DNA from: Crossiella equi
Lineage (GTDB): Bacteria > Actinomycetota > Actinomycetes > Mycobacteriales > Pseudonocardiaceae
Direction: 5' to 3'
Assembly: GCF_017876755.1 (NCBI RefSeq)
Contig: NZ_JAGIOO010000001.1
Location: forward strand, 8,541,786-8,605,785
Length of the DNA stretch: 64,000 bases
The notes under the pieces were generated by a model that had not been told where the DNA came from, ran no database searches, and saw only the letters and a program-made list of their open reading frames with translations. Positions 16,932 to 59,876 of this stretch are shown in pieces; position 1 is the first letter of the stretch; every line of letters begins with the position of its first letter. The translations under genes and the position numbers were made by a program.

Positions 16932-17050
16932 CCCGCTAGAGAGTTTTCGTTGCGGGTGTTCCCTGTCGAGCGGCCACTCCCGGACAGTTGGCTTTCGAGT
17001 GGCCTTTCCTGGTGCACTTGGGGGTTCGTGTGGCCTGACCGGTAAACCCG

Positions 17051-17163
17051 ACTGCTCGTGCGGCCTGACTAGGCAACCCCACTGCTCGTGCGGCCTGACT
17101 AGGCAACCCCACTGCTCGTGCGGCCTGACTAGGCAACCCCACTGCTCGTGCGGCCTGACTAGG
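17051..17163. repeat. Tandem 30-bp repeat, nearly four copies
   Basis: Three exact copies of a 30-bp unit starting ACTGCTCGTGCGGCCTGACT and ending AGGCAACCCC (17051-17140) and a fourth that keeps its first 23 bases (17141-17163). A diverged copy precedes it at 17021-17050. The copies are head to tail with no spacers, so this is not a CRISPR array. Confidence 0.9.
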
Positions 17164-17285
17164 CGTGTTGGCCGGGCCGGTACCTCGTGTTGGCACGGAG
17201 GGGATGGCCTTTCCCCGAGGCCGTAGGCCGCAGGGGTGGCCCTGCCTGGAGGGCCAACACGAGGTACCGGACCGGCCAACACGCC
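17162..17285. repeat. Palindrome with 33-bp arms (left)
   Basis: Arm 17162-17194 begins GGCGTGTTGGCCGG and ends CTCGTGTTGGC; arm 17253-17285 is its reverse complement with one mismatch. The loop (17195-17252) has smaller dyads. It could form a very stable hairpin in RNA from either strand and lies between convergent genes, so it may act as a two-way terminator. Confidence 0.85.
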
Positions 17286-17430
17286 CGGCTGGTGGGCGAG
17301 ACGGCGTAGCCGTGAGCTCGGGGTAACACCCACCGGGGGTGTACGACTGACCGGGGTGTACGACTGACCCGGGGTGTGCGGGTGATGGGTTGCTCCGGGC
17401 TTACGGCTTCGCCGTTTCGCCCCCGGGCCG

Positions 17431-17556
17431 GGCGTGTTGGCCGTGTGGGTACCTCGTGTTGGCCCTGCGTGGAGGCCGCCCCTTCGGCCCTTCGGGCCTG
17501 GGGGAACCGGCCGTCCTCTCCGTGCCAACACGAGGTACCCACACGGCCAACACGCC
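17431..17556. repeat. Palindrome with 33-bp arms (right)
   Basis: Arms 17431-17463 (GGCGTGTTGGCCGTGTGGGT and onward) and 17524-17556 are perfect reverse complements. The outer 14 bases and the last 15 bases agree with the left palindrome, whereas the centre of each arm differs in a compensated way (GGGCCGG against TGTGGG), which indicates that pairing was conserved while sequence drifted or was exchanged. Confidence 0.87.
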
Positions 17557-17735
17557 TAGTGAGGCCGCACGAGTCGTGGGGTTTCTGGTTTGGCCGCGCG
17601 AGTCGTGTGGTTTCTGGTCTGGTCGTACGAGTCGTGGGGGTTTCTGGTCTGGCCGCACGGACCGTCAGGCCAGGAAGGCCGTTCGTGCCCGAGGCGACGC
17701 CGTCCGGACGGCTCAACGCCCACGGCGAAAACTCT

Positions 17736-18893: not shown

Positions 18894-18998
18894 GCTCTCG
18901 TGCCTACCATGCCTGCCCCGGTCCCCTGACCTGTGGTGGAAAGATCCGCTCAAGCGTGCCGACAGCGGCCCGACAGGCCCGTCCGGCTTACTGGCGGC

Positions 18999-20270
18999 AT
19001 GCACGCGCGCCTGTTCCCCCTGACCACCGCCCAGCGCGGGCTGCGGCCCGACGCCGTGGACCACCGGCTGTACGTCCTGACCGGGCCGGTGCGGCTGCCC
19101 GCGCTGCGCGCGGCCCTGGCCGAGCTGGTCCGGCGGCACGAGCCGTTGCGCACCACCTGTGCGGCGGGCGGGCAGCGGGTGCACGAGGAGATGCCCGTGC
19201 CGGTGCGCGTGTACCCCGCCGCCGATCCGCTGGCCCTGGCGCGCGAGCTGGTGCGACAGCCGTTCCCGGCCGGGGAGGGGCCGCTGCTGCGGGTGTACCT
19301 GCTGCGGTCGGCGGGGGCCGAGCACCTGCTGGTGGTCTGGCACCGCCTGGTGATGGACAGCTGGGGTGTCGGGGTGTGGTGCCGCGAGCTGAGCGCCCTG
19401 TACTACGAGCTGACCGTCGGCGAGCACACCCACCTGCCCCCGGCCCCGGGCCGGTACGCGGACTGGGCGGCCTGGCGGGACGGACTGGCCACCAGCGCCC
19501 GCACCGCCGAGCTGCTCGCCTGGTGGGCGCACCGCCTCGCCGCCACCGAACCCCTCGCGCTGCCCGCGCACGGTCAACCCTCCGGCCAGGCGCGGCGCAG
19601 CGTCCGCCTGCTGTCCACCCAGGACCTCGAACGGGTCGAGGACACCGCGCACCGTGCGGGCACCACGGTCTACGCGGTGCTGGCCGCCGCCTGCGCGGAC
19701 ACGCTGCGCCGCCACACCGGGCAGGAGCGGTTCGTGCTCGGCACGCCGGTCAGCCACCGGGACCGGGGCGAGACCAGCGCGATGCTCGGCTGCTTCCAGG
19801 ACACGCTGCCGATCCCGCTCGACCTGGGCGGGGCGCACACGCTGGAGGAGCTGAGCCCGCGCCTGCTGACCGCGGCCACCGAGGCGTTCAGTCGCCGCCA
19901 CCTCTCCTACGACCAGCTGCGCCGCGTGCTGCCCGGTGGCGGGCTCCGGGCGCACTTCAGCCACCGGCCCCTGGACTGGTGGACCGCGCCGAGCCTGCCC
20001 GCCTGTGAGCCGGTGGACCTGGACCTGCCCGACACCGACTGGCCGTTCGCGCTGCGCGTGGACGAGCTGCCCGGCGGCGCCCGGGTGGTGCTCGACGTCG
20101 ACCCGGCCGTGCACACCGCCGAGCTCGCCGAGCGGTTCCTCGCCGACTACGTGCGCGCGCTGCTGGACGGCGGGGTGCCGGAGCAGGCCCGGCGGCCGGT
20201 GAACGAGTGGGCGGCGCTGCGCCTGGCCACCGACTACGAGAACTGGCTGGAGGAACAGCTCGCGCGCTGA
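18999..20270 (+). CDS. Stand-alone condensation-domain-like protein with degenerate active site
   Basis: 423 residues, the size of one NRPS condensation domain and nothing else. The start LFPLTTAQRGL, LRRHEPLRTT-like segment (VRRHEPLRTTCAAGG), YADWAAWRDG, VLGTPVSHRDRGETSAMLGCF and the terminal WPFALRVDELPGG segment follow the family from end to end. At the catalytic motif HHxxxDG it reads HRLVMDS: the second, catalytic histidine is arginine and the glycine is serine. Peptide-bond formation by the normal mechanism is therefore unlikely; a recruiting or scaffold role, or a different acyl-transfer chemistry, is possible. No carrier or A domain is adjacent. It is divergent from an aminotransferase gene. 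Confidence 0.85.
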   Translation: MHARLFPLTTAQRGLRPDAVDHRLYVLTGPVRLPALRAALAELVRRHEPLRTTCAAGGQRVHEEMPVPVRVYPAADPLALARELVRQPFPAGEGPLLRVYLLRSAGAEHLLVVWHRLVMDSWGVGVWCRELSALYYELTVGEHTHLPPAPGRYADWAAWRDGLATSARTAELLAWWAHRLAATEPLALPAHGQPSGQARRSVRLLSTQDLERVEDTAHRAGTTVYAVLAAACADTLRRHTGQERFVLGTPVSHRDRGETSAMLGCFQDTLPIPLDLGGAHTLEELSPRLLTAATEAFSRRHLSYDQLRRVLPGGGLRAHFSHRPLDWWTAPSLPACEPVDLDLPDTDWPFALRVDELPGGARVVLDVDPAVHTAELAERFLADYVRALLDGGVPEQARRPVNEWAALRLATDYENWLEEQLAR

Positions 20271-21716: not shown

Positions 21717-21939
21717 GGCGACCCCCGCCTCGACCCCTGACGACCTGAGAATACTCGGGGTATCACTCGCCTGCCGTCACCATTTGGCATGAATCCTTTC
21801 CGCTGGAGGTCGTGAAGCGGACATAAGCGCCAAATTCTGTTTATTTTCATCTTTGAACCCCCGTGTGGACAGCTCTCCGCACAAGCGCGTACGGTGCGAA
21901 TCACTCGAACAAATTCTGGGGACGTTAGGGGAACCGCAT
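21717..21939. promoter_or_regulatory. Divergent moaA-narG control region
   Basis: This AT-richer stretch must contain the promoters of both the nar operon and the moaA operon. An imperfect dyad GAATACTCGGGGTATC lies at 21750-21765, and a run of T/A (TTCTGTTTATTTTCATC) at about 21834-21850. No classical FNR box (TTGAT-N4-ATCAA) is visible. The narG ribosome site AGGGGA is at about 21926-21931. Confidence 0.45.
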
Positions 21940-24900
21940 ATGCCTGCGGTGAATAAACGTGCTCGAACTGCTCCCACCACGGACAACCGAGCAGGGGACC
22001 TCCTCCTCGCGGCCGGCAGACTGCTGACCCGCGAGGAGACGACCGAGGATCTGCGCGCGACGTTCCGCCGGGGCGGCCGCGAGGCGGACGCGTTCTACCG
22101 GGACCGCTGGGCCCACGACAAGGTGGTGCCGTCCACGCACGGGGTCAACTGCACGGGCTCCTGCCGCTGGAACGTCTACGTCAAGGACGGCATCATCACC
22201 TGGGAGTCCCAGGACGTGGACTACCCGTCGGTGGGCCCGGACCGTCCGGAGTACGAGCCGAGGGGCTGCCCGCGCGGCGCTTCCTTCTCCTGGTACTCCT
22301 ACTCCCCGCTGCGCGTGCGCTACCCGTACGCCCGGGGTGTGCTGGTGGAGATGTTCCGCGAGGGCCTGCGCGTGCACGACGGCGACCCGGTGCGCGCCTG
22401 GGAGTCCATTGTGGACGACCCGCAGAAGCGGCACGTGTACCACCGGGCCCGCGGCAAGGGCGGCCTGGTGCGGGTGAGTTGGGACGAGGCGGTCAACATG
22501 ATCGCCGCCGCACACGTGCACACGCTCAAGCGGCACGGCCCGGACCGCATCGCGGGCTTCTCGCCCATCCCCGCGATGTCCATGGTCTCGCACGCCGTCG
22601 GCTCCCGGTTCATGGCGCTGCTCGGCGCGCCCATGCTGTCCTTCTACGACTGGTACGCCGACCTGCCCCCGGCCTCGCCGCAGGTCTTCGGCGACCAGAC
22701 CGACGTGCCGGAGTCCGCGGACTGGTGGGACGCGGCCTACCTGATGCTGTGGGGCAGCAACGTCCCGGTCACCCGCACCCCGGACGCGCACTTCATGACC
22801 GAGGCGCGCTACCGGGGCCAGAAGGTCGTGGTGTGCTCCCCGGACTACTCCGACGCCACCAAGTTCGCCGACGAGTGGCTGGCCCCGCACCCGGGCACCG
22901 ACGCCGCCGTCGCGCTGGCGATGAACCACGTGGTGCTGCGCGAGTTCTTCGTGGACAGGCGGGAACCGTTCTTCCACGACTACGTCCGCCAGTACACCGA
23001 CCTGCCGTTCCTGGTCACGCTGACCGAGCGCGAGGCGGGCCTGGTGCCCGGCAAGTTCCTCACCGCGGCCGACCTGGGCCACGAGGGCGGCGGCGCCGAG
23101 TGGAAGACCGTGCTCCTCGACGGCGCGAGCGGGGAACCGGTGGTGCCCAACGGTTCCCTCGGCTTCCGCTGGCTGGACGAGCCCGGTCGCTGGAACCTGG
23201 ACCTGGCGGGCGTCGAACCGGAGCTGAGCATGTTCGGCACCGGCGAGTCCGCCGAGGTCACCCTGCCGCGCTTCGACGACCCGAGCGGCACCGGCGCCAC
23301 CATGCGCCGGGGGGTGCCGGTGCGGCGGGTGCGCGGCCAGCTGGTCACCACGGTCTACGACCTGCTGCTGGCCCAGTACGGCGTGGCCCGCCCGGACCTG
23401 CCGGGGGAGTGGCCAACCGGCTACGACGACCCGGACCAGCCCGGCACGCCCGCCTGGCAGGAGACCCTCACCGGTGTCCCGGCCGCCCGCGCCACCCGCA
23501 TCGCCCGCGAGTTCGCCGACACCGCGATCCGCTCACGCGGCCGGTGCATGATCGTGATGGGCGCGGGCACCAACCACTGGTTCCACTCCGACCTGGTCTA
23601 CCGCTCGTTCCTGTCCCTGCTGGTGCTCACCGGCTGCCAGGGCCGCAACGGCGGCGGCTGGGCGCACTACGTCGGCCAGGAGAAGGTCCGCCCGCTCACC
23701 GGCTGGGCCACCCTGGCGGGCGCGCTGGACTGGGTGCGGCCGCCGAGGCAGATGATCGGCACCGGCTACTGGTACACCCACACCGACCAGTGGCGCTACG
23801 ACCGGGTCAGCACCGACGCGCTGACCTGGCCGGGCGCGGCCGGTGACCTGGTGGGCACCACGGCCGCCGACCTGCTCGCCACCTCGGCGCGGATGGGCTG
23901 GATGCCCTCCTACCCGACCTTCGACCGCAACCCGCTCGACCTCACCGCCGAGGCCGAACAGGCGGGCGAGGACCCGGTCGCGCACGTGCTGGCCAAGCTC
24001 CAGGCGGGCGAGCTCGGCTTCGCCGCCGAGGACCCGGACGACCCGGCGAACTGGCCGCGCGTGCTCACCGTGTGGCGGGCCAACCTGCTGGGCTCCTCGG
24101 CCAAGGGCAACGAGTACTTCCTGCGCCACCTGCTGGGCACGGACGCGAACCTGCGCGCCACCGAGACGCCCGAGGGCGAGCGGCCGAAGTCGGTGCGCTG
24201 GCGGGAGAAGGCCCCCGAGGGCAAGCTGGACCTGTTGCTGGCGCTGGACTTCCGCATGACCAGCACCACGCTGTTCGCCGATGTCACGCTCCCGGCGGCC
24301 ACCTGGTACGAGAAGCACGACCTGTCCAGCACGGACATGCACCCGTTCGTGCACTCGTTTAACGCGGCCGTCGACCCGCCCTGGCAGGCGCGCACGGACT
24401 TCGACGCCTTCCACGCCATCGCGCGGCGGCTGAGCGAGCTGGCCGTGGACCACCTCGGTACGCGCAAGGACCTCGTGGTCACCGCGCTGCAACACGACTC
24501 GCCCGGCGAGGTGGCCCAGCCTGGCGGCAGGCTGCGGGACTGGCGCGAGGGCCACGGCCAGCCGCTGCCCGGTGTCAACTTCCCGAACCTGACCGTGGTG
24601 GAACGCGACTACACCGCCGTGGCCGCCAAACTCGCCGCACTGGGCCCGCTGCTGGACAAGCTGGGCACCACCACCAAGGGCTACACGGTGGAGGTGGAAC
24701 CGGAGCTGCGCTGGCTCGGCGAGTCCAACGGCCTGGTCTCCGGCGGTCCCGCCGCCGGACGGCCACGCCTGGACACCGACCGGCGCGCGGCGGACGCGGT
24801 GCTCGCGCTCTCCGGCACGACCAACGGCCGCATCGCCGACGAGGGCTTCCGGGCCCTGGCCGAACGCACCGGGCGGCCGCTGCGCACCCTGTCCGAGCAC

Positions 24901-25635
24901 AACACCCACCACCGGGTCACCTTCGCCGACACCCGGTCCCGGCCCGCGCCGGTCACCACCAGCCCGGAGTGGTCGGGCGACGAGGGCGGCGGCAGGCGGT
25001 ACTCGCCGTTCACCATCAACGTCGAGCAGCTCAAGCCCTGGCACACCCTCACCGGGCGCCAGCACTTCTTCCTCGACCACGACTGGGTGGCCGAGCTGGG
25101 CGAGCAGCTGCCGGTCTACCGGCCGCCGCTGGACATGCACCGGCTCTACCAGGAACCGCGCCTGGGCCCCCACGGCGCCGAGGTCACCGTCCGGTACCTG
25201 ACGCCGCACTCGAAGTGGTCCATCCACTCCGAGTACCAGGACAACCCGATCATGCAGACGCTCTCCCGCGGCGGCCCGGCCTTCTGGATCAGCAAGGCCG
25301 ACGCGGACGCGATCGGGGTGGCCGACAACGACTGGGTCGAGGCGGTCAACCGCAACGGCGTGGTGGTGGCGCGCGCGATCGTCTCGCACCGCATGCCCAC
25401 CGGCACCGTGTTCATGTACCACGCGCAGGAGCGCACGGTGAACGTGCCCAAGAGCGAGACCACCGGCAGGCGCGGCGGCATCCACAACTCGCTGACCCGC
25501 GTGCAGATCAAGCCGACCCACCTCATCGGCGGCTACGGGCAGCTCAGCTTCGCCATCAACTACTACGGCCCGACCGGGAACCAGCGCGATGAGGTCACCG
25601 TGCTGCGCCGACGGAGCCAGGAGGTGACCTACTGA
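21940..25635 (+). CDS. narG: Respiratory nitrate reductase, alpha subunit
   Basis: 1231 residues, the normal size. The N-terminal iron-sulphur site HGVNCTGSC and the distant cysteine in RGCPRGASF bind the FS0 cluster; the Mo-ligand region reads SFYDWYADLPPASPQ with the ligand aspartate, where E. coli has a cysteine before DLPP. Mo-bis-MGD contacts and the C-terminal SKWSIHSEYQDNP block are standard. The ATG at 21940 is preferred over one 29 codons upstream because it follows AGGGGA at the right distance. First gene of narGHJI plus HPP. The enzyme reduces nitrate to nitrite on the cytoplasmic face and takes electrons from NarH. Confidence 0.98.
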   Translation: MPAVNKRARTAPTTDNRAGDLLLAAGRLLTREETTEDLRATFRRGGREADAFYRDRWAHDKVVPSTHGVNCTGSCRWNVYVKDGIITWESQDVDYPSVGPDRPEYEPRGCPRGASFSWYSYSPLRVRYPYARGVLVEMFREGLRVHDGDPVRAWESIVDDPQKRHVYHRARGKGGLVRVSWDEAVNMIAAAHVHTLKRHGPDRIAGFSPIPAMSMVSHAVGSRFMALLGAPMLSFYDWYADLPPASPQVFGDQTDVPESADWWDAAYLMLWGSNVPVTRTPDAHFMTEARYRGQKVVVCSPDYSDATKFADEWLAPHPGTDAAVALAMNHVVLREFFVDRREPFFHDYVRQYTDLPFLVTLTEREAGLVPGKFLTAADLGHEGGGAEWKTVLLDGASGEPVVPNGSLGFRWLDEPGRWNLDLAGVEPELSMFGTGESAEVTLPRFDDPSGTGATMRRGVPVRRVRGQLVTTVYDLLLAQYGVARPDLPGEWPTGYDDPDQPGTPAWQETLTGVPAARATRIAREFADTAIRSRGRCMIVMGAGTNHWFHSDLVYRSFLSLLVLTGCQGRNGGGWAHYVGQEKVRPLTGWATLAGALDWVRPPRQMIGTGYWYTHTDQWRYDRVSTDALTWPGAAGDLVGTTAADLLATSARMGWMPSYPTFDRNPLDLTAEAEQAGEDPVAHVLAKLQAGELGFAAEDPDDPANWPRVLTVWRANLLGSSAKGNEYFLRHLLGTDANLRATETPEGERPKSVRWREKAPEGKLDLLLALDFRMTSTTLFADVTLPAATWYEKHDLSSTDMHPFVHSFNAAVDPPWQARTDFDAFHAIARRLSELAVDHLGTRKDLVVTALQHDSPGEVAQPGGRLRDWREGHGQPLPGVNFPNLTVVERDYTAVAAKLAALGPLLDKLGTTTKGYTVEVEPELRWLGESNGLVSGGPAAGRPRLDTDRRAADAVLALSGTTNGRIADEGFRALAERTGRPLRTLSEHNTHHRVTFADTRSRPAPVTTSPEWSGDEGGGRRYSPFTINVEQLKPWHTLTGRQHFFLDHDWVAELGEQLPVYRPPLDMHRLYQEPRLGPHGAEVTVRYLTPHSKWSIHSEYQDNPIMQTLSRGGPAFWISKADADAIGVADNDWVEAVNRNGVVVARAIVSHRMPTGTVFMYHAQERTVNVPKSETTGRRGGIHNSLTRVQIKPTHLIGGYGQLSFAINYYGPTGNQRDEVTVLRRRSQEVTY

Positions 25636-27197
25636 TGCGTGTCATGGCACAGCTGGCCATGGTGATGAACCTGGACAAGTGCATCGGCTGCCACACCTGC
25701 TCGGTCACCTGCAAGCAGACCTGGACCAACCGCGAGGGCGTGGAGTACGTCTGGTTCAACAACGTCGAGACCAAGCCAGGCCAGGGCTACCCGAGGCGGT
25801 ACGAGGACCAGGAGAAGTGGCGCGGCGGCTGGAAGCTCGGCCGCAACGGGCGCCTGAAGCTCAACGCGGGCAGCAGGCTCTCCCGGCTGGGCAACATCTT
25901 CGCCAACCCGCGCCTGCCCCAGCTCGACGACTACTACGAGCCGTGGACCTACGACTACCGCAACCTGACCGAGGCCCCGCTCGGTGAGGACACGCCCACC
26001 GCGGCGCCGGTGTCCACGATCACCGGCAGGCCCACACAGCCGAAGTGGGGGCCGAACTGGGAGGACAGCCTCGCGGGCGCGCCCGAGCACGCCCAGTCCG
26101 ACCCGCTGGTGGAGAAGCTCGGTCGCAAGATCAGTTTCGAGTTCGAGCAGTCGTTCATGTTCTACCTGCCGCGCATCTGCGAGCACTGCCTCAACCCCTC
26201 GTGCGTGGCCTCCTGCCCGTCCGGTGCCATGTACAAGCGGGCCGAGGACGGCATCGTGCTGGTGGACCAGGACGGCTGCCGCGGCTGGCGGATGTGCGTG
26301 ACGGGCTGCCCGTACAAGAAGGTGTACTTCAACCACAAGACCGGCAAGGCCGAGAAGTGCACGTTCTGCTACCCGCGCCTGGAGGTCGGCCAGCCCACGA
26401 TCTGCTCGGAGACCTGCGTCGGACGGCTGCGCTACATCGGCGTGCTGCTCTACGACGCGGACAAGGTCGGCGAGGCCGCGTCCGTGCGGGACGAGCACGA
26501 GCTGTACCCCGCGCAGCTGTCGGTGTTCCTGGACCCGAACGACCCCGAGGTGGCCGCGGCCGCCGGGGCGGCGGGCATCCCGCACGACTGGGTGCGGGCC
26601 GCGCGCAACTCCCCGGTGTACGAGCTGATCGTCAAGCACGAGGTCGCGCTGCCGCTGCACCCGGAGTACCGCACCATGCCGATGGTCTGGTACATCCCGC
26701 CGCTCTCACCGGTGGTCGACGCCTTGGCCGAGACCGGGTTCGACGGGGAGGACGCGGACAACCTGTTCGGCGCGATCGACGCGCTGCGCATCCCGCTGGA
26801 CTACCTGGCCGAGCTGTTCACCGCCGGGGACGTGGCGCCGGTGCGGGCCTCGCTGCGCAAGCTCGCGGTGATGCGGGCGTACATGCGCTCGGTCAACCTC
26901 GGCGAGGCCCCGGACCCGCGCGCGCTCCAGGAGGCCGGGTTCACCGCGGACTCGGTGGACTCGCTGTACCGGCTGCTCGCCATCGCCAAGTACGACGACC
27001 GGTACGTGGTGCCGACCGCGGGCATCGGGCGCGCGCACGAGCTGGAGGGCATCGCCACCGCGTGCAGCCTGGACACCGACGGCGGACCCGGCATGGGCGG
27101 CCCCGGCGGTGCGAACGGCACCGACCTGTTCGTGTGGCAGGACGGCGAGCGCCCGGCCGGGCTGTTCCCGACCCTGGGCAAGAAGGGCGGCCGATGA
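25635..27197 (+). CDS. narH: Respiratory nitrate reductase, beta subunit
   Basis: 520 residues. It carries four iron-sulphur cysteine groups: CIGCHTCSVTCKQTW, CEHCLNPSCVASCPSG, CRGWRMCVTGCPYKK (tryptophan in place of one cysteine marks the 3Fe-4S cluster) and CTFCYPRLEVGQPTICSETC. It passes electrons from the haem subunit NarI to NarG. The ATG overlaps the narG stop by one base (TGATG). The C-terminal tail (GGPGMGGPGGANGTD) is glycine-rich and of variable type. Confidence 0.98.
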   Translation: MRVMAQLAMVMNLDKCIGCHTCSVTCKQTWTNREGVEYVWFNNVETKPGQGYPRRYEDQEKWRGGWKLGRNGRLKLNAGSRLSRLGNIFANPRLPQLDDYYEPWTYDYRNLTEAPLGEDTPTAAPVSTITGRPTQPKWGPNWEDSLAGAPEHAQSDPLVEKLGRKISFEFEQSFMFYLPRICEHCLNPSCVASCPSGAMYKRAEDGIVLVDQDGCRGWRMCVTGCPYKKVYFNHKTGKAEKCTFCYPRLEVGQPTICSETCVGRLRYIGVLLYDADKVGEAASVRDEHELYPAQLSVFLDPNDPEVAAAAGAAGIPHDWVRAARNSPVYELIVKHEVALPLHPEYRTMPMVWYIPPLSPVVDALAETGFDGEDADNLFGAIDALRIPLDYLAELFTAGDVAPVRASLRKLAVMRAYMRSVNLGEAPDPRALQEAGFTADSVDSLYRLLAIAKYDDRYVVPTAGIGRAHELEGIATACSLDTDGGPGMGGPGGANGTDLFVWQDGERPAGLFPTLGKKGGR

Positions 27198-44223: not shown

Positions 44224-44856
44224 TCAGCCCGGCGGCAGGTCCAGTGCCACAATTTCCCCCACCTCAGCCCGCACGGAGCCCCCGGTCTGCTCGGCCAGCC
44301 AGCGCTGGAAGGCGTCCACTTCGGACTCCGGTACGTGCACCCCGATCGTCACGCCGCTGCCGTAGCCGACCTCGGCCACCCGGTGCCCGGCCGCCCGCAG
44401 CGTGTGCTCCAGCCGCCCGGCCTCGGCGTGCGCGACCTCGACCGTGACCGTGGCGAAGCGCCCGCGCCGCAGCGTGCCCAGGACGTCCACGGCCTCCGAC
44501 ACCGCCCGCCCGTACGCGCGCACCAGGCCACCGGCGCCGAGCTTGGTCCCGCCGAAGTAGCGGGTGACCACGGCCACCACGTCGGTGAGGTCGCGGCGCA
44601 GCAGGACCTCCAGCATGGGCACCCCCGCCGTGCCCGCGGGCTCGCCGTCGTCGCTGGAGCGCTGCGTGCCCTCGGCCAGGCGGAAAGCGGTGCAGTTGTG
44701 GTTGGCCGACCAGTGCTCCTTGCGCACCCCGGCGATGAACTCCGCCGCGGCCTCCTCGGTCTCCACCCGGGCCAGGCTGCACAGGAAGCGCGAGCGCTGG
44801 ATCTCGATCTCGTGCACGCCGTCGCGGGCGAGGACTACCGGGGCGCTGGGGTGCAT
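44224..44856 (-). CDS. YigZ/IMPACT-family protein
   Basis: 210 residues. The N-terminal UPF0029 Impact domain is seen in EIEIQRSRFLCSLARVETEEAA, SANHNCTAFRL, SSDDGEPAGTAGVPMLEVL and VTRYFGGTKLGAGGLVRAYG; the C-terminal ferredoxin-like half follows (about residues 140-205). Biological role in bacteria is unclear. The DGEP and RYFGG blocks are intact. The gene lies between helR and the first LysR gene, all on the minus strand, but the gap to helR carries its own promoter elements. Confidence 0.94.
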   Translation of the reverse strand: MHPSAPVVLARDGVHEIEIQRSRFLCSLARVETEEAAAEFIAGVRKEHWSANHNCTAFRLAEGTQRSSDDGEPAGTAGVPMLEVLLRRDLTDVVAVVTRYFGGTKLGAGGLVRAYGRAVSEAVDVLGTLRRGRFATVTVEVAHAEAGRLEHTLRAAGHRVAEVGYGSGVTIGVHVPESEVDAFQRWLAEQTGGSVRAEVGEIVALDLPPG

Positions 44857-44865
44857 GCCCGAACC

Positions 44866-45801
44866 CTACGCCGGGACGGGGCTGGCCCCGGTCAGCTTCC
44901 CGGCGACCCCGGCCAGGTGTGCGCGCAACCACGCGTTCGCCGGGTCCTGGGTGTTGCGGGGGTGCCAGAACGCGCCCACGGACAGCGACATCGGGGTGGC
45001 CAGCGGCACCTCGCGCAGTCCCAGCCCGGGGCCGAGGGCCTGGAAGAGCCTGCGCTGGGTGAGCGTGACCAGGTCGGTGCCCGCCACCATCTGCAGCGCC
45101 TGGCCGAAGGTGTCGACCAGGACCGCCACCGGCTGGCGCACCCCGCGCTCGACCAGCCTGCCCTGCGGCACGTTCACCCGGTCGCCCAGCGCGGCCACCT
45201 GCACCGCGGGCAGCTGGGCCAGGTCCTGGGCGGTGAGCGGGCCGCGGAGCGGGTTGGTCGCGTCGACCGCCGCCACGAACTCATCCTGCAGCAGGGCCAC
45301 GTGCGGGAACTGGAGCATGTCCTGCTCGGGCATCGTCAGCGGCCACAGCAGCAGGTCGCAGCGGCGGGAGCGGACCGCCTCGGTGACGTCCACACGCAGC
45401 GGCTCGACGTGCAGCCGGATGCCCGGCGCCTCGGTCAGCAGGCAGCGCAGCGCCGGGCGCAGCAGCACCGTGGCGCAGTAGTCGCTGGCCATGACGGTGA
45501 AGGTGCGCGACTCGGCCGCCGGGTCGAAGCTGCGCCCCACGTACAGCACGTCCTTGGCGGCCTCCAGCGCAGCCTGCACCGGTAGCAGCAGCGACTCGGC
45601 CAGCGGGGTCAGCGCGAGCGAACGGCCCTCGCGCACCAGCAGCGGGTCGTCGAAGAGGCGGCGCAGCTTGCCCAGCGCCGTGCTCATCGACGGCTGCGCC
45701 ATCGAGAGGCGTTCGGCCGCCCGGGTCACATTGCGTTCGGTCAGCAGTGCGTGCAGCGGGATCATCAGGTTGAGGTCAACTCGACTGAGTTCGTCCGACA
45801 C
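44866..45801 (-). CDS. LysR-family regulator, copy 1
   Basis: 311 residues. Helix-turn-helix NVTRAAERLSMAQPSMSTAL near residue 24-43, then REGRSLALTPLAESLL and a NodD-like effector domain (TFTVMASDYCATVLL, LVTLTQRRLFQALGPGLGLREVPL). It is clearly a paralogue of the second LysR protein in this window, with most positions shared. GTG start. It is divergent from the truncated NRPS copy, 178 bp between starts, and probably binds the conserved block in that gap. Confidence 0.93.
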   Translation of the reverse strand: MSDELSRVDLNLMIPLHALLTERNVTRAAERLSMAQPSMSTALGKLRRLFDDPLLVREGRSLALTPLAESLLLPVQAALEAAKDVLYVGRSFDPAAESRTFTVMASDYCATVLLRPALRCLLTEAPGIRLHVEPLRVDVTEAVRSRRCDLLLWPLTMPEQDMLQFPHVALLQDEFVAAVDATNPLRGPLTAQDLAQLPAVQVAALGDRVNVPQGRLVERGVRQPVAVLVDTFGQALQMVAGTDLVTLTQRRLFQALGPGLGLREVPLATPMSLSVGAFWHPRNTQDPANAWLRAHLAGVAGKLTGASPVPA

Positions 45802-45806
45802 TGACG

Positions 45807-45838
45807 CAGCCTATATCCTCGCAGCTCAGGGCAAGTAT
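45807..45838. promoter_or_regulatory. Conserved block in LysR-NRPS gap, copy 1 (putative LysR site)
   Basis: CAGCCTATATCC followed by CGCAGCTCAGGGCAA and TAT is nearly identical to the block at 49440-49471, while much of the remaining gap has drifted. Short CCT...AGG dyad and flanking TAT triplets fit a LysR-type site next to the regulator start. Confidence 0.55.
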
Positions 45839-45979
45839 CGCGGAAGCCGATGGGCCGTATAGCGAATTCATGGGTTCTGTCCTCACGGGACCGCCCATAA
45901 CCTCGGGGAACGCAGGGAAAAATGTCGATTTCCCGTTCGCGCGCCTGTCGCGATTACGCCATGCCGAGGGAGTATTGCC

Positions 45980-48505
45980 GTGCCCGGGTATCCGCTCGCA
46001 CTCACCAGTGCCCAGGTCGGCGTGTGGCACGCCCACCAGCTCGACCCCTGCGGACTCGCGCACAACCTCGCGGAGTACCTGGAGATCACCGGCCCGTTCG
46101 ACCTCGTCCGGTTCGAGGCGGCACTGCGTGTGCTGGTGGCCGAGGCGGAGTGCCTGCGTGCCCGGTTCACCCGGGACGGGCACGGCGTGCGCCAGCTCGT
46201 CGAACCCGAGATGCCGGTGGTGCTGGACGTGGTGGACCTGTGCGAACGGCCGGAGGCGGCCGGGGAACGCGTGCGCGCGGTGCTGGAGCGCCGCTTCGAC
46301 CTGGCCCGCGGCCCGCTGTTCACCTTCACCGTGCTGCGCCTGGCCGAGGAGCGGCACCTCTGGGTGCACTGCTACCACCAGCTCGTCGCGGACGGCTGCA
46401 CGACCGCCCTGCTGGCCCGCCGCGCGGGCGAGGTCTACACCCGCCTCGCCGAGGGGCGGGGCCCGGGGGAGAGCCCGTTCCCGCCGCTGGCCACGCTCGT
46501 CGAGGCCGACGCCGCCTACCGGGCCTCCGCGCGGTACGCGGCCGACCGCGAGTTCTGGGCCGGGTACGTGGCGGACCTGCCGGAGCCGGTCAGCCTGTCC
46601 GCGCGCCCGGCCGCCCCCGCCCGGATCCCGCGGTGCCGCACCAGCAGGCTGCCCCCGGAGACCACGGAGGCCCTCACCCTGGCCGCGCACCGGGCGGGCA
46701 CCTCGCCCGCCACCGCGCTGACCGCCGCCGTGGCCGCGTTCCTGCAACGCATGACCGGCCGCGGCGAGCAGGTCCTCGGGCTGCCCACCGCCTCGCGCTG
46801 CTCGCGAGCCACCCGCACCACGCCGGGCCTGATCGCCACCGCGGTGCCGCTGCACCTGTCGCTGCACCCCGGCATGACCGTGCCCGAGCTGCTCGCGCAC
46901 ACCGCGGCCCGCGTGGACGAGGTGCTGGCGCACCCGTACCTGCCCGCCGCCGGGGACCGGCTGCCCGGCACCCGCGTCACCGTCGTCCACGTCCCCCGCG
47001 AGGTGCGCTTCGGCCAGGCCACCGCGACCGCCCACCACGTGTCCGGCGCGGCCACCGACGACCTGTCCGTGACCGCCTACGACCGGGGGGACGGCCACGA
47101 CCTGGAGATCACCCTGGACGCCAACCCCGCCCGGTACACCAGCGCCGAGGTCGAGGTGCTCGAACAGCGGCTGCGGCGCTTCCTGGGCGGGTTCGGCCGA
47201 CTCGGCGACCGCGCGGTGGGCGAGGCCGAGGTGCTCAGCCCGGCCGAGCGTGACCGGTTGCTCGCGGCCTGGGCCGGTGGCGCGCCGCCCGCCGCGCCCG
47301 CGACGCTCGTCGAGCTGGTCGCCGCCCGGGTCGAGGAGTTCCCGGAGCGGACCGCGGTGGCCTGCGAGGGCGGGTCGCTGACCTACCGGGAGCTGTCCGC
47401 CCGCGCGAACCGCCTGGCGCGCCTGCTGATCGCGGACGGTGTCGGGCCCGGTGACCTGGTCGGGGTGGCGTTCCCGAACTCGCTGGACCTCGTGGTGGCC
47501 GTGCTCGCGGTGGTCACCGCGGGGGCGGCCTGCCTGCCGATCGACCCCGGCGCCCCGGGCGAGGCCCACCTGGTCGAGGACGCCAAGCCGGTGCTGGTGC
47601 TGGCCGCCGACGGGTCGCTGCCCGGCGCGCTGCCGCTGCACGCCGACGACGTGCGCCTGGCCCTGTCCGCGCTGCCCGGCGCACCGGTCACCGACGCCGA
47701 GCGCGTGCGCCCCCTGGCACCGGACCACCCGGCCTGCGTGCTGCGCGCCGAGGACGGCACCGGCGTGTTCCTCCCGCACCGCAACGTCGTGCGGCTGTTC
47801 ACCGCCACCGACCGCCTGCACCGCTTCCACGCGTGGGACGTGTGGACCCTGTGCCACCCCGCCACCTCCGGCTTCGCGGTGTGGGAGCTGTGGGGCGCAC
47901 TGCTGCACGGCGCGCGCCTGGTCGTCGTACCGCCGGCCGTGACGCGGTCGGCACCGGAGCTGCTGCGGCTGCTGGTGGCCGAGCGGGTCTCCGTGCTGAC
48001 CATGCCGCCCTCGGCCTTCCACCGGCTGGCCGACGCCGACCGGGACGAGCCCGGCCTGGGGCAGCACCTGTCCCTGCGCGCGGTCGTCCTCGGCGGTGAG
48101 GCCCTGGACCTGACCCGCCTGGCCGACTGGTACGACCGGCACCCGGAGCACTCCCCGGTCCTGGTCAACACCCACGGCAGCGCCGAGACCACCGTGCTGG
48201 CCACCCAGCTCGCCCTCAGCCGCGAGGACTGCGTCCCCGGCGCGGGCAGCCTGATCGGGCGCGCCGTGGACGACCTGCGCGTCTACCTGCTGGACGCACA
48301 GGGCAACCTGGCCCCGCCCGGCAGCGCGGGCGAGATCCACGTGACCGGCCCCGGCCTGGCCACCGGCTACCTGAACCGGCCCGGCCGGACCGCGCGCTCC
48401 TTCGTGCCCTGCCCGTTCGGCGAGCCCGGCGGGCTGATGTACCGCACGGGCGAGCTGGCCCGCTGGACCGAGGACGGCTGCCTCCAGTACCTGGGCCGTG
48501 TCTAG
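45980..48505 (+). pseudogene. Truncated NRPS copy (C-A part) with lost catalytic residues
   Basis: 841 residues, open from end to end, but a dead copy of the NRPS at 49615. The condensation motif reads YHQLVADG: the catalytic second histidine is glutamine. In the adenylation part the ATP loop [11 protein letters not shown] is replaced by RAEDGTGVF with a short deletion, the substrate-binding aspartate of FDFSVWE is gone (SGFAVWE), and NMYGITETT is NTHGSAETT. Some 10-12 residues near [10 protein letters not shown] are missing. The protein ends at YLGRV, before the A8 hinge, the last A subdomain and the carrier domain. Its TAG shares a CTAG with the stop of the second LysR gene. It is either a decaying relic or a non-catalytic protein kept under selection; the open frame argues for caution. 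Confidence 0.82.
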
Positions 48506-49434
48506 GCCGGGTCGGCCCGGGCCAGCTCCCCGGCCGCGCGGGCGAGGTGCCCGCGCAGCCACTTGTGCGCCGGGTCCTGGGCGTGCCGCGGGTGCCAGAA
48601 CGCACCCGTGGTCAGCGGCACCGGGTCCATGGCCAGCGGCACCTCGCGCAGCCCGAACGCGGGGCCGAGGGCCTGGAAGAGCCTGCGCTGGGTGAGCGTG
48701 ACCAGCTCGGTGCCCGCCACCATCTGCAACGCCTGGGTGAAGGAGCCCACCGTGATCGCCACCGGCTGGCTCAGGCCGCGTTCGGCGAGCTTGCCCCGGG
48801 GCACGTCCAGCCGCTCGCCCACCGGGGCCACCCGCACCGCGGGCAGCCGTGCCAGGTCCTGGGCGGTGAGCGGGCCGGGCAGCGGGTTGGCCGCGTCCAC
48901 CACGGCCACGAACTCGTCCTCGAACAGCGTGGTGTGCGGGAACCGCAGCAGCTCCTGCTCGGGCAGCTGCAACGGCCACAGCAGCAGGTCGCAGCGGCGG
49001 GCGCGCAGTGTCTCGACGAGGTCCGCGCGCAGCGGCTCGACCTGCAGCCGGACGCCCGGTGCCTCGGCGAGCAGGCGGGGAAACACCGGGCGCAGCAGCA
49101 CCGTGGCGGCGTAGTCGCTGGCCAGGATGCTGAACGTGCGCGACTCGCCCGCCGGGTCGAAGCTCTGCCCCACGGTCAGCACGTCCCGCGCGGCCACCAG
49201 CACCGACTGCACCGGCTGCACCAGCGACTCGGCCAGCGGCGTCAGGGCGAGCGTGCGGCCCTCGCGCACCAGCAGCGGGTCGTCGAAGTGCTGGCGCAGT
49301 TTCGCCAACAGCATGCTCATCGACGGCTGCGACATCGAGAGCCGTTCAGCGGCCTTCGTCACATTCCGTTCGAGCAACAGCGCATTTAGCGGGAGCAATA
49401 CGTTCAGGTCAATCCTGCTGAGATCCTCCGGCAC
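48502..49434 (-). CDS. LysR-family regulator, copy 2
   Basis: 310 residues, paralogue of the LysR protein at 44866. Helix-turn-helix NVTKAAERLSMSQPSMSMLL, then REGRTLALTPLAESLV, ASDYAATVLLRPVFPRLLAEA and LVTLTQRRLFQALGPAFGLREVPL. GTG start. It is divergent from the intact NRPS gene with 180 bp between starts. Its stop codon overlaps that of the truncated NRPS in a CTAG. As the copy next to the functional NRPS it is the probable working pathway regulator. Confidence 0.93.
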   Translation of the reverse strand: MPEDLSRIDLNVLLPLNALLLERNVTKAAERLSMSQPSMSMLLAKLRQHFDDPLLVREGRTLALTPLAESLVQPVQSVLVAARDVLTVGQSFDPAGESRTFSILASDYAATVLLRPVFPRLLAEAPGVRLQVEPLRADLVETLRARRCDLLLWPLQLPEQELLRFPHTTLFEDEFVAVVDAANPLPGPLTAQDLARLPAVRVAPVGERLDVPRGKLAERGLSQPVAITVGSFTQALQMVAGTELVTLTQRRLFQALGPAFGLREVPLAMDPVPLTTGAFWHPRHAQDPAHKWLRGHLARAAGELARADPA

Positions 49435-49439
49435 CGCGC

Positions 49440-49471
49440 CAGCCTACATCCACGCAGCTCAGGGCAACTAT
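49440..49471. promoter_or_regulatory. Conserved block in LysR-NRPS gap, copy 2 (putative LysR site)
   Basis: CAGCCTACATCC, then CGCAGCTCAGGGCAA and TAT, directly upstream of the second LysR start. Further conserved islands are GGAATTCGT (about 49497-49505), CCTAACCTCGG (about 49531-49541) and the ribosome-site region GCCGAGGGAGT before the NRPS start. Confidence 0.55.
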
Positions 49472-49614
49472 AAACCAGGCCGATCCGCGCTATTGGGAAT
49501 TCGTAGCTTCTGCCCCGGCGAGACCGCTCCTAACCTCGGTGACCACAGGGGAACACGTCCGGACTTCTCCTCCCCGACCGCGTCGCCAATTCACCTTGCC
49601 GAGGGAGTTCCACC

Positions 49615-55158
<5,544 letters not shown>

Positions 55159-55200: not shown

Positions 55201-55532
55201 CAGCCGCGCGGCGCGTACATGATCACGGCCACCCCGGCCAGGCAGACCAGGGCGCCGAGCACGTCGAAGCGGTCCGGGCGGTAGCCGTCGGCGACCATGC
55301 CCCAGGCCAGCGACCCGGCCACGAACACCCCGCCGTAGGCGGCCAGGATGCGGCCGAAGTTCGCGTCGGCCTGGAGGGTGGCGGCGAAGCCGTACAGGCC
55401 CAGGGCGAGCACCCCGCCGCCGATCCACAGCCAGCCCCGGTGCTCGCGCACGCCCTGCCAGACCAGCCAGGCACCACCGATCTCCAGCAGGGCGGCGAGC
55501 AGAAAGAAGATGATCGAGCGCAGCACCGGCAT
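55200..55532 (-). CDS. YnfA/UPF0060-family small membrane protein
   Basis: 110 residues with four helices: [58 protein letters not shown] and [37 protein letters not shown] and [11 protein letters not shown] are family landmarks. The fold is related to small multidrug resistance proteins; transport activity is plausible but not shown for this one. ATG at 55532, divergent from the AlkC-like gene. Confidence 0.93.
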
Positions 55533-55589
55533 GCGCTGATTCTGTCGTGGTCCTCCGGATACTGGGTGGGCACCACCGAGAGGAGCACG

Positions 55590-56684
55590 ATGCCCACCGC
55601 CGACGAACTGCTCGGGCCCGCCGTCGCGGCCCGGCTGGTCACCGTCCTCGCCCGGGTCGCGCCCGGCCCGCTGCCCCGGCTCCGCCGTGCCGCCAGGGGC
55701 CTGGCCGGGCTGGCGCTGCGCGAGCGGAGCGACCTGCTGGCCGCCGCGGTCCTGGCCGACCTGCCCGGCGACTACGCGAGCCTGGACGCCCTGGTCCGCG
55801 CCGCGCTGCCGGACCCCGGGCTGGACGGCTGGCTGGTGTGGCCGGTCACCGAGGCGGTCGCCGCCCGCGCCCTCACCGAGGCTCCGCCCGCGGTGGTGCC
55901 CGCGCTGCACCTGCTCGCCGAGCTCACCCCCCGGCTGACCGCCGAGTTCGCCATCCGGCCCCTGCTCTCGGCCGACCTGGACGCGGCCCTGCCCGTGGTG
56001 CTGGCCTGGACCCGGCACCCCGACGAGCACGTGCGCAGGCTGGCCAGCGAGGGCACCCGCGCGCACCTGCCGTGGGCGCGCAAGGTCAAGTCCATCCTGG
56101 ACGGTCCACGGCGGACGGTGCCCATCCTGGACGCGCTGTACCGCGACGAGAGCGAGTACGTGCGGCGCTCGGTGGCCAACCACCTCAACGACCTCAGCCG
56201 CGCCAACCCGGAGCTCGTGGTCGAGACCGCCGCGCGCTGGCTGGCCGAGCCCGACGAGCACACCGCGCGCCTGGTCCGGCACGGCCTGCGCACCCTGGTC
56301 AAGAAGGGCGATCCGGGCGCGCTCGCGCTGCTCGGGTTCGGGCCCGCACCGCGGATCGAGGTTACCGGGCCGGTGCTCGGGCGCACCGCCGTGGTGCTCG
56401 GCGAGGACCTGCCCTTCGAGGTCACCCTGGCCAACACCGGGGACACCGAGGAGAGCCTGGCCATCGACTACGTGGTGCACCACCTCAAGGCCAATGGCAG
56501 GCGCACGCCCAAGGTGTTCAAGCTGACCACCCGCGTGCTCGCGCCCGGTGAGACGGTCACGCTCAGCCGCAGGCACCCGTTCCGCCGCATCACCACCCGC
56601 GCCTACCATGCCGGCGAGCACGAGATCGAGGTGCAGGTCAACGGCACCGCCTCCGGGCGCGTGGCCTTCGAGCTGCACGTCTGA
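55590..56684 (+). CDS. DNA alkylation repair protein, AlkC-like HEAT-repeat protein
   Basis: 364 residues. Helical HEAT-like repeats ([59 protein letters not shown]) are followed by a C-terminal beta-sandwich part (about residues 255-364: [21 protein letters not shown]). This matches AlkC-type DNA glycosylases, which remove 3-methyladenine and related bases; the C-terminal immunoglobulin-like domain is a feature of one AlkC branch. ATG at 55590 with GAGAGGAG upstream. Confidence 0.9.
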
Positions 56685-58932: not shown

Positions 58933-59376
58933 GTGTCCAGGACTGCCGGACCGGGCCCCGCGGTGAGCGGACGCCTGGCCTATCTGCTCAAGCACGCCAC
59001 GATGCGCCTGCACGCGCTGACCGACGCGGCACTGGCCCCCCTCGGCCTGGACGGCCGGGAGATGGGCGTGCTGCTGGTGCTGGCGAACGGCGAACCGACC
59101 TCACAGCAGGAAGCGGCCCAGCGTCTGGGCATCGACCGCACCACGATGGTCGCCCTGCTGGACGCCTTGGCGCACAAGGGCTTCATCTCCCGTCGTCCCA
59201 GCCCGGAGGACCGCCGCCGCAACGTGGTCGCCCTGACCGAAGAGGGCCACACCGCGGTGGCCAGGGCGGTCAAGGCCGCCGACGAGGCCGAACACGAGTT
59301 CCTGGGCAACCTCCCCCCGGATGCCGCCCACCACCTGCGTGCGGCCCTCCGAACAGTGGTCCTCCGCGAACCCTGA
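58933..59376 (+). CDS. MarR-family transcriptional regulator
   Basis: 147 residues. Winged helix LVLANGEPTSQQEAAQRLGIDRTTMVALLDAL and wing GFISRRPSPEDRRRNVVALTEEG are standard, with N- and C-terminal dimerisation helices. GTG start at 58933. The operator-like repeat lies 25 bp upstream, so autoregulation and control of the divergent epimerase-like gene are likely. Convergent with azlD across a palindromic repeat. Confidence 0.93.
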   Translation: MSRTAGPGPAVSGRLAYLLKHATMRLHALTDAALAPLGLDGREMGVLLVLANGEPTSQQEAAQRLGIDRTTMVALLDALAHKGFISRRPSPEDRRRNVVALTEEGHTAVARAVKAADEAEHEFLGNLPPDAAHHLRAALRTVVLREP

Positions 59377-59384
59377 CCCCGCCC

Positions 59385-59545
59385 GTGTTGGCCGCCCCCG
59401 CACTTCGTGTTGGCCCATCCCGTACCCCGTGTTGGCTGGTCCCGTACTTCGTGTTGGCCATCACCGCAGACCGCACTGGGCGTTTCAGCGGCGCCGCAGC
59501 GACGGGATGGGCCAACACGGGGTACGGGATGGGCAAACACGGGCG
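59385..59545. repeat. GTGTTGGC-type palindromic repeat between marR and azlD
   Basis: Left arm 59403-59436 (ending CCCGTACCCCGTGTTGGC) and right arm 59511-59544 (starting GCCAACACGGGGTACGGG) are reverse complements with few mismatches. Four direct copies of CGTGTTGGC occur in the left half. The arm ends match the two palindromes near 17162-17556, and here too the element lies between convergent genes, a few bases from both stops. Confidence 0.85.
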
Positions 59546-59552
59546 GTGCGGG

Positions 59553-59876
59553 TTAGAGGAGGGTGCTGGCCAGGGTTGCGTGGACTGTCGTGCCGGTCAG
59601 GATGCTCAGCAGGGCGTTGTGGCGCCACAGGTGCAGGCCCACCGTGACCGCCAGGGCTGTCAGTGGGGGGAGGGCGTGCAGGGTGGTCAGCGGGAGGTCG
59701 CGCAGGCAGTAGACCACCAGGATGATCATCACTCCGGCGGGCATGCGGGCGCCCAGGTACCGCACCGTGGTGCTGGCGCGCAGCGGGGCCAGGGCGGCGA
59801 AGGGCAGGGCGCGCAGGGCCCAGGTGACCGCCGCGGTGACCGCGATCGCGGCGATGGCGTAGGCGGTGTCAGGCAT
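59553..59876 (-). CDS. azlD: AzlD-family branched-chain amino acid export subunit
   Basis: 107 residues with three or four helices (YAIAAIAVTAAVTWALRALPF, GVMIILVVYCLRDLP, LTALAVTVGLHLWRHNALLSI). The last pattern is typical of AzlD. It overlaps azlC by 8 bp and forms with it an exporter for branched-chain or related amino acids. ATG start. Confidence 0.93.
   Translation of the reverse strand: MPDTAYAIAAIAVTAAVTWALRALPFAALAPLRASTTVRYLGARMPAGVMIILVVYCLRDLPLTTLHALPPLTALAVTVGLHLWRHNALLSILTGTTVHATLASTLL

Follow-up and report, generated by a model that had tools for sequence, protein, structure and literature searches.

Background

Among the closest described systems to the locus reported here are the X domains of glycopeptide nonribosomal peptide synthetases (NRPSs), dead condensation domains that are described as having a binding role, namely the recruitment of P450s (PMC8949500, PMC6565677). 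The albicidin-type systems are described as NRPSs that contain a non-functional adenylation domain (PMC8949500). Truncated tandem duplicates and decaying NRPS copies offer a third point of comparison, since there too a partial copy lies beside an intact parent, with lost motifs and relaxed selection. Our search of titles and abstract starts found no description of this Crossiella locus, and it did not find "nonribosomal peptide synthetase" paired with "pseudoenzyme".

The DNA analysed is a 64,000-nucleotide stretch of the Crossiella equi genome at contig positions 8541786-8605785, hereafter the window, in which a truncated NRPS gene, NRPS-A, is followed by an intact paralogue, NRPS-B. The original prediction had described NRPS-A as a duplicate whose frame stays open after the loss of its catalytic residues, and had offered neutral decay or a pseudo-enzyme kept for binding or regulation as explanations. 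We found that neutrality over the whole gene is rejected and that selection is strongly relaxed; a binding pseudoenzyme is possible. The reading that we favour, at somewhat better than even confidence, is that NRPS-A is a dead, truncated duplicate that is probably expressed and whose two halves are both subject to weakened purifying selection.

Results

Self-comparison of the window showed that 44874-48498 is repeated in tandem as 48505-52184, with 82.5% identity over 3693 columns. This 3.6 kb repeat contains a minus-strand LysR-family gene, a spacer, and the 5' part of an NRPS gene. Its first unit comprises LysR-A (44866..45801, minus strand), a duplicated LysR-family regulator of 311 aa; spacer A (45802..45979), which separates LysR-A from NRPS-A; and NRPS-A itself (45980..48505, plus strand), a condensation-adenylation copy that is catalytically dead by motif. 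The second unit comprises LysR-B (48502..49434, minus strand, 310 aa), spacer B (49435..49614), and the beginning of NRPS-B (49615..55158, plus strand, 1847 aa), which starts 1.1 kb downstream of NRPS-A and of which residues 1-857 are the duplicated part. NRPS-A has a GTG start and is 74% identical to those N-terminal 857 residues (631/857 aligned columns). The predicted duplication and open frame were both borne out, with no internal stop or frameshift over 841 codons, yet the event is larger than had been described, as the tandem duplication doubled the LysR gene too. An antisense frame at 45776-48979 (minus strand, 1067 codons) was set aside as usual for high-GC DNA.

The homology is limited on the left by the LysR stop codon and on the right by codon 840 of NRPS-A, where the next unit starts. 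At this tandem-duplication junction (48498..48505), the letters CTAG at 48502-48505 provide the stops of both NRPS-A on the plus strand and LysR-B on the minus strand. Because homology ends at the junction, a single tandem duplication accounts for the truncation, and NRPS-A was probably truncated at birth, in one step. The whole pair could instead have been duplicated and then shortened by a deletion that stopped exactly at the junction, though this is less simple, and the truncation fits the junction better than it fits later decay.

Each of the four motif losses that had been predicted was confirmed by alignment to NRPS-B. The condensation motif HHLVADG of NRPS-B has become HQLVADG, the ATP-binding loop reads RAEDGT----G, with a four-residue deletion (12 nt at 47761..47762, plus strand; B residues 608-611), the stretch holding the substrate-binding aspartate reads PATSGFAVWELW, with the aspartate of B gone, and the GITETT motif of B is not retained, the sequence there being NTHGSAETTV. 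The last three are what we take to be the adenylation motifs A3, A4, and A5. Two further in-frame deletions, which had gone unmentioned, remove 11 residues (33 nt at 46940..46941, plus strand; B residues 326-336) and 2 residues (6 nt at 47558..47559, plus strand; B residues 540-541). That the catalytic residues are all replaced was too strong a claim, since the first His and the DG of HHxxxDG, together with most of A6 and A7 (with D842E), are retained.

The condensation family PF00668 matches residues 7-322 of NRPS-A at 173 bits (profile 6-330 of 456; gathering cut-off 30.6), and the AMP-binding family PF00501 matches residues 449-798 at 201.1 bits (gathering cut-off 29.9). There was no Pfam match to AMP-binding_C or PP-binding in NRPS-A at E<=0.001, in keeping with the prediction that it stops before the carrier domain. 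NRPS-B has all four families (condensation, AMP-binding, AMP-binding_C, and carrier), with three condensation stretches. With TIGR01733, NRPS-A scored 260.9, below the curated cut-off of 317.4, and NRPS-B scored 444.1. Judged by its domain content, without an adenylation C-subdomain and without a carrier domain, NRPS-A cannot act as a synthetase module. AlphaFold2 models, built with the same nine sequences each, had a mean pLDDT of 86.5 for NRPS-A and 87.8 for the first 857 residues of NRPS-B; this confidence is compatible with NRPS-A folding, though it is driven by the alignment of intact relatives.

To place the duplication in time, we compared relatives. Five Crossiella genomes were searched, that of the window included. 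The two sister species, G001 and G002, have one close copy each, while G003 and G004 have homologues of about 39% identity only. At the family level, 200 genomes were sampled from a larger group, one genome per species; 13 of them had a match at E<=1e-180, of which 12 had a single match each and the genome of the window had two. In G001, G002, and G097 there is a single unit, in which a full-length NRPS copy adjoins a LysR gene. Compared with two alternative topologies, codon likelihood joined A and B as sisters by margins of 68-70 lnL units for the NRPS and 28-30 for LysR, and this grouping was favoured in all four NRPS segments. The duplication is therefore shown to be younger than the split from G001 and G002, in the lineage of this Crossiella genome. 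An old duplication common to the sister species is ruled out by the topology, with a margin of just about 2 lnL units at residues 319-430. The truncated copy, which the original prediction had proposed to look for in related genomes, is absent from the sisters, yet this is not evidence of loss because the tree dates the duplication after the split.

The LysR-NRPS pair is found together in G001, G002, and G097 despite surroundings unlike those of the window, and it resembles a two-gene cassette. Selected genes around the pair in these three genomes (16-20 kb each) had weak or no matches in the window, the pair excepted. G001 and G002 have several genes in common on the NRPS side of the pair, and the match between the G097 neighbourhood and that of G001 is confined to the pair. 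For the genes on either side of the pair in the window (44224-44856 and 55440-56684), the homologues are separated by 1.3-1.4 Mb in G001 and G004, and in G002 and G003 they occupy different contigs. The pair therefore sits at a rearrangement or insertion junction.

Elsewhere in the window, dense repeats occupy 17023-17663, about 1.3 kb before a condensation-family gene (18933-20270). Near-identical direct copies offset by ~30 bases lie around 17026-17164 and 17563-17659, and 17057-17659 shows a 77% match to its own reverse complement. Between ~59361-59445 and 59502-59562, we observed inverted repeats that are 31-63 bases long and have 81-97% identity. A Pfam scan of 20 selected window proteins placed a molybdopterin oxidoreductase gene and a nitrate-reductase-beta-like gene (21853-27197) between the NRPS-related genes of the window, and one simple pattern search of the window found no MbtH motif.

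The alternative that survives best, though we consider it somewhat unlikely, is an ordinary pseudogene, which was constrained early (possibly as a longer, working duplicate that a deletion afterwards shortened), is now neutral, and has stayed open by chance. The end of homology at the duplication junction already speaks against it, while the single match in each of the other 12 family genomes speaks in its favour. We measured selection with an MG94-type codon model, in a script written for this analysis rather than PAML or HyPhy, on five NRPS sequences and 837 codons. The omega of NRPS-A was 0.38, compared to 0.115 elsewhere, and equality was rejected (2dlnL 45.7), as was omega=1 on NRPS-A with free ages (2dlnL 25.3). 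With a separate omega for NRPS-B, A came out at 0.34, B at 0.19, and the remaining branches at 0.11, and a model of one omega per branch gave 0.05-0.22 off A. When A and B were forced to the same age, omega was 0.50 for A and 0.11 for B, and omega=1 was again rejected for A (2dlnL 28.3). The estimates thus span about 0.34-0.38 for NRPS-A across free-age fits, or 0.50 with equal ages, and 0.11-0.19 for NRPS-B. For gene and branch as a whole, neutral evolution is rejected, and selection is strongly relaxed; an omega below 1 could reflect an early constrained phase. The relaxed omega itself fits a pseudogene, and so do the flat codon-position counts, with parsimony placing 80/77/68 changed bases at positions 1/2/3 on A (225 polarised changes) and 16/16/38 on B. 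The changed codons were 145 nonsynonymous and 40 synonymous on A, and 34 and 31 on B.

By segment, the equal-age omega of NRPS-A was 0.42 (residues 1-318), 0.64 (319-430), 0.63 (431-640), and 0.39 (641-841). Omega=1 was not rejected in the two middle segments; residues 319-640 are the most relaxed stretch, a point in favour of a pseudogene. Both halves of the gene, condensation (C) and adenylation (A), had an equal-age omega of 0.50 and rejected omega=1 (P 2e-4 and 1.5e-4, respectively), although for the A half forcing equal ages worsened the fit (2dlnL 14.2), so that branch lengths there are unreliable. Free-age segment fits gave an omega of 0.26 in the A half, compared to 0.40 and 0.60 in the C half, where omega=1 was not rejected (P 0.067 and 0.31); these fits have a near-zero B branch in the A domain, and hence the whole-gene and equal-age fits are preferred. 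For the sliding-window dN/dS that had been proposed as a check, eight of ten 140-codon windows (free ages) were indistinguishable from omega=1 at 5%; the two that rejected it (residues 425-564 and 635-774) both fall wholly or partly within the A domain. Neutral decay with dN/dS close to 1 along the whole gene does not hold, as omega=1 is rejected for the whole gene and, with equal ages, for each half.

All three coding indels of NRPS-A (33, 6, and 12 nt) are multiples of three, a 1 in 27 chance if lengths were random modulo 3, and the sole indel in spacer A is 2 nt long, a difference that argues against a pseudogene. The open frame is modest evidence for selection. In neutral simulations with 300 runs per spectrum and 255 substitutions assumed, slightly more than the 225 polarised changes, 0.3-19% of runs remained stop-free, depending on the spectrum, and at 100 substitutions the fraction reached up to 0.46, figures that favour a pseudogene open by chance. 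We therefore discarded the absence of stops as proof of selection. GC3 is 0.970 in NRPS-A and 0.977 in NRPS-B; the NRPS-A value lies above the 1-99% range simulated with the branch's own pooled spectrum (0.945-0.968), contrary to a pseudogene, though it is within the 0.970-0.984 simulated for a 0.97-GC equilibrium.

The DNA of the region is 73% GC. On the NRPS-A branch, A/T-to-G/C changes were observed at 48/171 first and 47/389 second positions (95/560 together), while at the same positions G/C-to-A/T changes numbered 40/918 and C-G exchanges 21/918. The GC-neutral C-G exchanges are rarer there than at position 3 (69/544, P=4e-15), as expected with selection on the protein. G/C-to-A/T changes are rarer at position 3 (9/544) than at positions 1+2 (P=0.006, or P=0.025 once gap neighbourhoods are left out), the pattern to be expected from continued selection on codon usage. 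In spacer A, the A/T-to-G/C changes were 0/44, unlike coding positions 1+2 (P=0.0008), and the G/C-to-A/T changes were 7/79, differing from coding position 3 (P=0.002). The G/C-ward coding trend is therefore not simply regional, as far as a short and partly constrained spacer can tell, and this too weighs against a pseudogene. As stated in PMC2936535, mutation is AT-biased in the bacteria studied there, and pseudogenes share their genome's selection on base content.

A retained pseudoenzyme, in which the dead C-A fragment is selected for binding, is in our judgement unlikely. Its C domain might, for example, dock a carrier domain or partner enzyme, or the fragment might act on the LysR-controlled expression of NRPS-B. 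The open frame, the in-frame indels, and the retained promoter region and ribosome site would fit such a protein, as would an omega of 0.50, below 1 in both halves, and the similar AlphaFold2 confidence of A and B, alignment-driven as it is. X domains would supply a precedent, as they are described (PMC8949500, PMC6565677). Against it, NRPS-A was found in one genome only.

How the changes fall on conserved sites bears on both alternatives. The panel consisted of 19 full-length distant homologues (24 found among 26 loci tried, with 5 dropped as >90% identical to a kept one); codons near gaps were excluded, and the C half was taken as B residues 1-450. In the C half of NRPS-A, 16 changes fell at conserved sites compared to 29.3 expected (P=0.0003), an avoidance that counts against a pseudogene. 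In the A half, there were 44 compared to 46.1 expected (P=0.36), so that its changes ignore conservation, which favours a pseudogene and disfavours a pseudoenzyme. The NRPS-B control had 1 compared to 8.1 expected in the C half and 3 compared to 13.4 in the A half. Exchanges in NRPS-A were milder than random (BLOSUM -0.17 vs -0.50, P=0.0013) in both the C half (P=0.0135) and the A half (P=0.018), in favour of a pseudoenzyme. The conserved-site result depends on the homologue panel, and the C/A split was examined post hoc over seven ranges. A reading with a drifting A half and a constrained C half was dropped, as the A half does not have the higher omega. Since the halves have the same omega, or the A half the lower one when ages are free, we read the contrast, which a single test supports, as one of kind: the C half follows the old conservation pattern and the A half does not.

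A first panel, with 12 of 19 loci tried, had left opposite-orientation loci unhandled, and 3/12 of its members matched part of the query only. It gave depletion at moderately conserved sites and excess at invariant ones, a pseudoenzyme signature that was gone overall with the 19 homologues. At invariant sites, the first panel had 30 changes compared to 22 expected (P=0.047), and the full-length homologues had 9 compared to 9.6. Exchanges at the first-panel invariant sites were no milder than random (-0.70 vs -0.75, P=0.45), which also tells against a pseudoenzyme.

The losses had been described as concentrated at active sites. Core motifs held 17.6% of the NRPS-A changes compared to 13.6% expected when each nonsynonymous change was redistributed over the sites at which that base change was possible, which is not significant (P=0.075). 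NRPS motifs are rich in A/T-coded residues, so an A/T-to-G/C spectrum erodes them; the base-change spectrum of the branch roughly accounts for the motif losses, which do not on their own mark selected loss. That the losses were themselves favoured, and concentrated at catalytic sites, is very improbable: the small core-motif surplus, the first-panel excess at invariant sites, and the departure of A/T-to-G/C change at positions 1+2 from the spacer point that way, but the invariant-site excess vanished with full-length homologues, and the motif residues are A/T-coded on a branch where A/T-to-G/C change dominates positions 1+2.

The AGGGAG before the GTG start of NRPS-A is kept, as are the elements that spacer A has in common with B, G001, and G002. 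Across the aligned stretch, which includes short gene ends, 11/123 polarised sites changed in spacer A and 24/136 in spacer B. Both LysR copies are full length, each with HTH and effector-binding domains by Pfam. As the promoter region, ribosome-binding sequence, and regulator are all retained, NRPS-A is probably still transcribed and translated. In grouped fits, omega was 0.32-0.44 for LysR-A, 0.24-0.30 for LysR-B, and 0.13-0.14 for other branches, and omega=1 was rejected for LysR-A (2dlnL 4.0 with free ages, 19.4 with equal ages). Given the raised omega of both, a division of regulatory roles is possible. The two regulators have diverged to 71% identity, and each adjoins its own copy of the divergent promoter (44866-49434).

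Discussion

The account that we prefer, of a dead duplicate under weakened purifying selection, runs as follows. After the split from G001 and G002, the first 3.6 kb (5' part) of the LysR-NRPS pair was duplicated in tandem. This produced a second NRPS gene, probably truncated at birth, with a condensation domain and most of an adenylation domain, and this gene kept the duplicated promoter region, ribosome-binding sequence, and LysR regulator. NRPS-A lost its catalytic constraint, with purifying selection weakened in both halves. The C half has lost its catalytic histidine, but its changes still avoid conserved sites. In the A half, changes ignore conserved sites, and those at positions 1+2, mostly A/T-to-G/C, remove A/T-coded motif residues. 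NRPS-A most likely persists as a dead remnant, presumably folded or partly folded, beside a maintained LysR-A and operator.

A more specific possibility, which we regard as quite improbable, is that a free-standing pseudo-condensation protein has arisen here recently and independently. It would consist of a dead C domain and a re-purposed or drifting A remnant, would be driven by its own regulator copy, and would be kept to bind or regulate the intact paralogue. If true, the locus would show, at an early stage, the sort of event from which X domains may have come. More generally, if selection keeps the frame, the locus would be a natural example, dated by a tree, of how an NRPS fragment turns from an enzyme into a non-enzyme, with intact relatives to compare it to, and it would show that dead C domains can arise by partial tandem duplication. 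If NRPS-A is only decaying, it would be a caution that motif loss with an open frame in 73% GC DNA is not in itself evidence for a pseudoenzyme.

NRPS-A differs from truncated tandem duplicates and decaying NRPS copies in that it keeps its frame, GC3, promoter region, and a duplicated regulator, and in that its whole-gene omega is below 1. Albicidin-type inactive A domains belong to a main assembly line and are complemented in trans by a separate A-T protein; NRPS-A is without a carrier domain. X domains share with NRPS-A the condensation fold and a mutated HHxxxDG, the kistamicin X domain being described as HRxxxDE (PMC6565677) and NRPS-A having HQxxxDG; they sit inside a working assembly line, unlike NRPS-A, which is a free C-A fragment and keeps the DG. 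Since dead C domains with a binding role are already known, NRPS-A as a binding protein would add one more example to an established kind.
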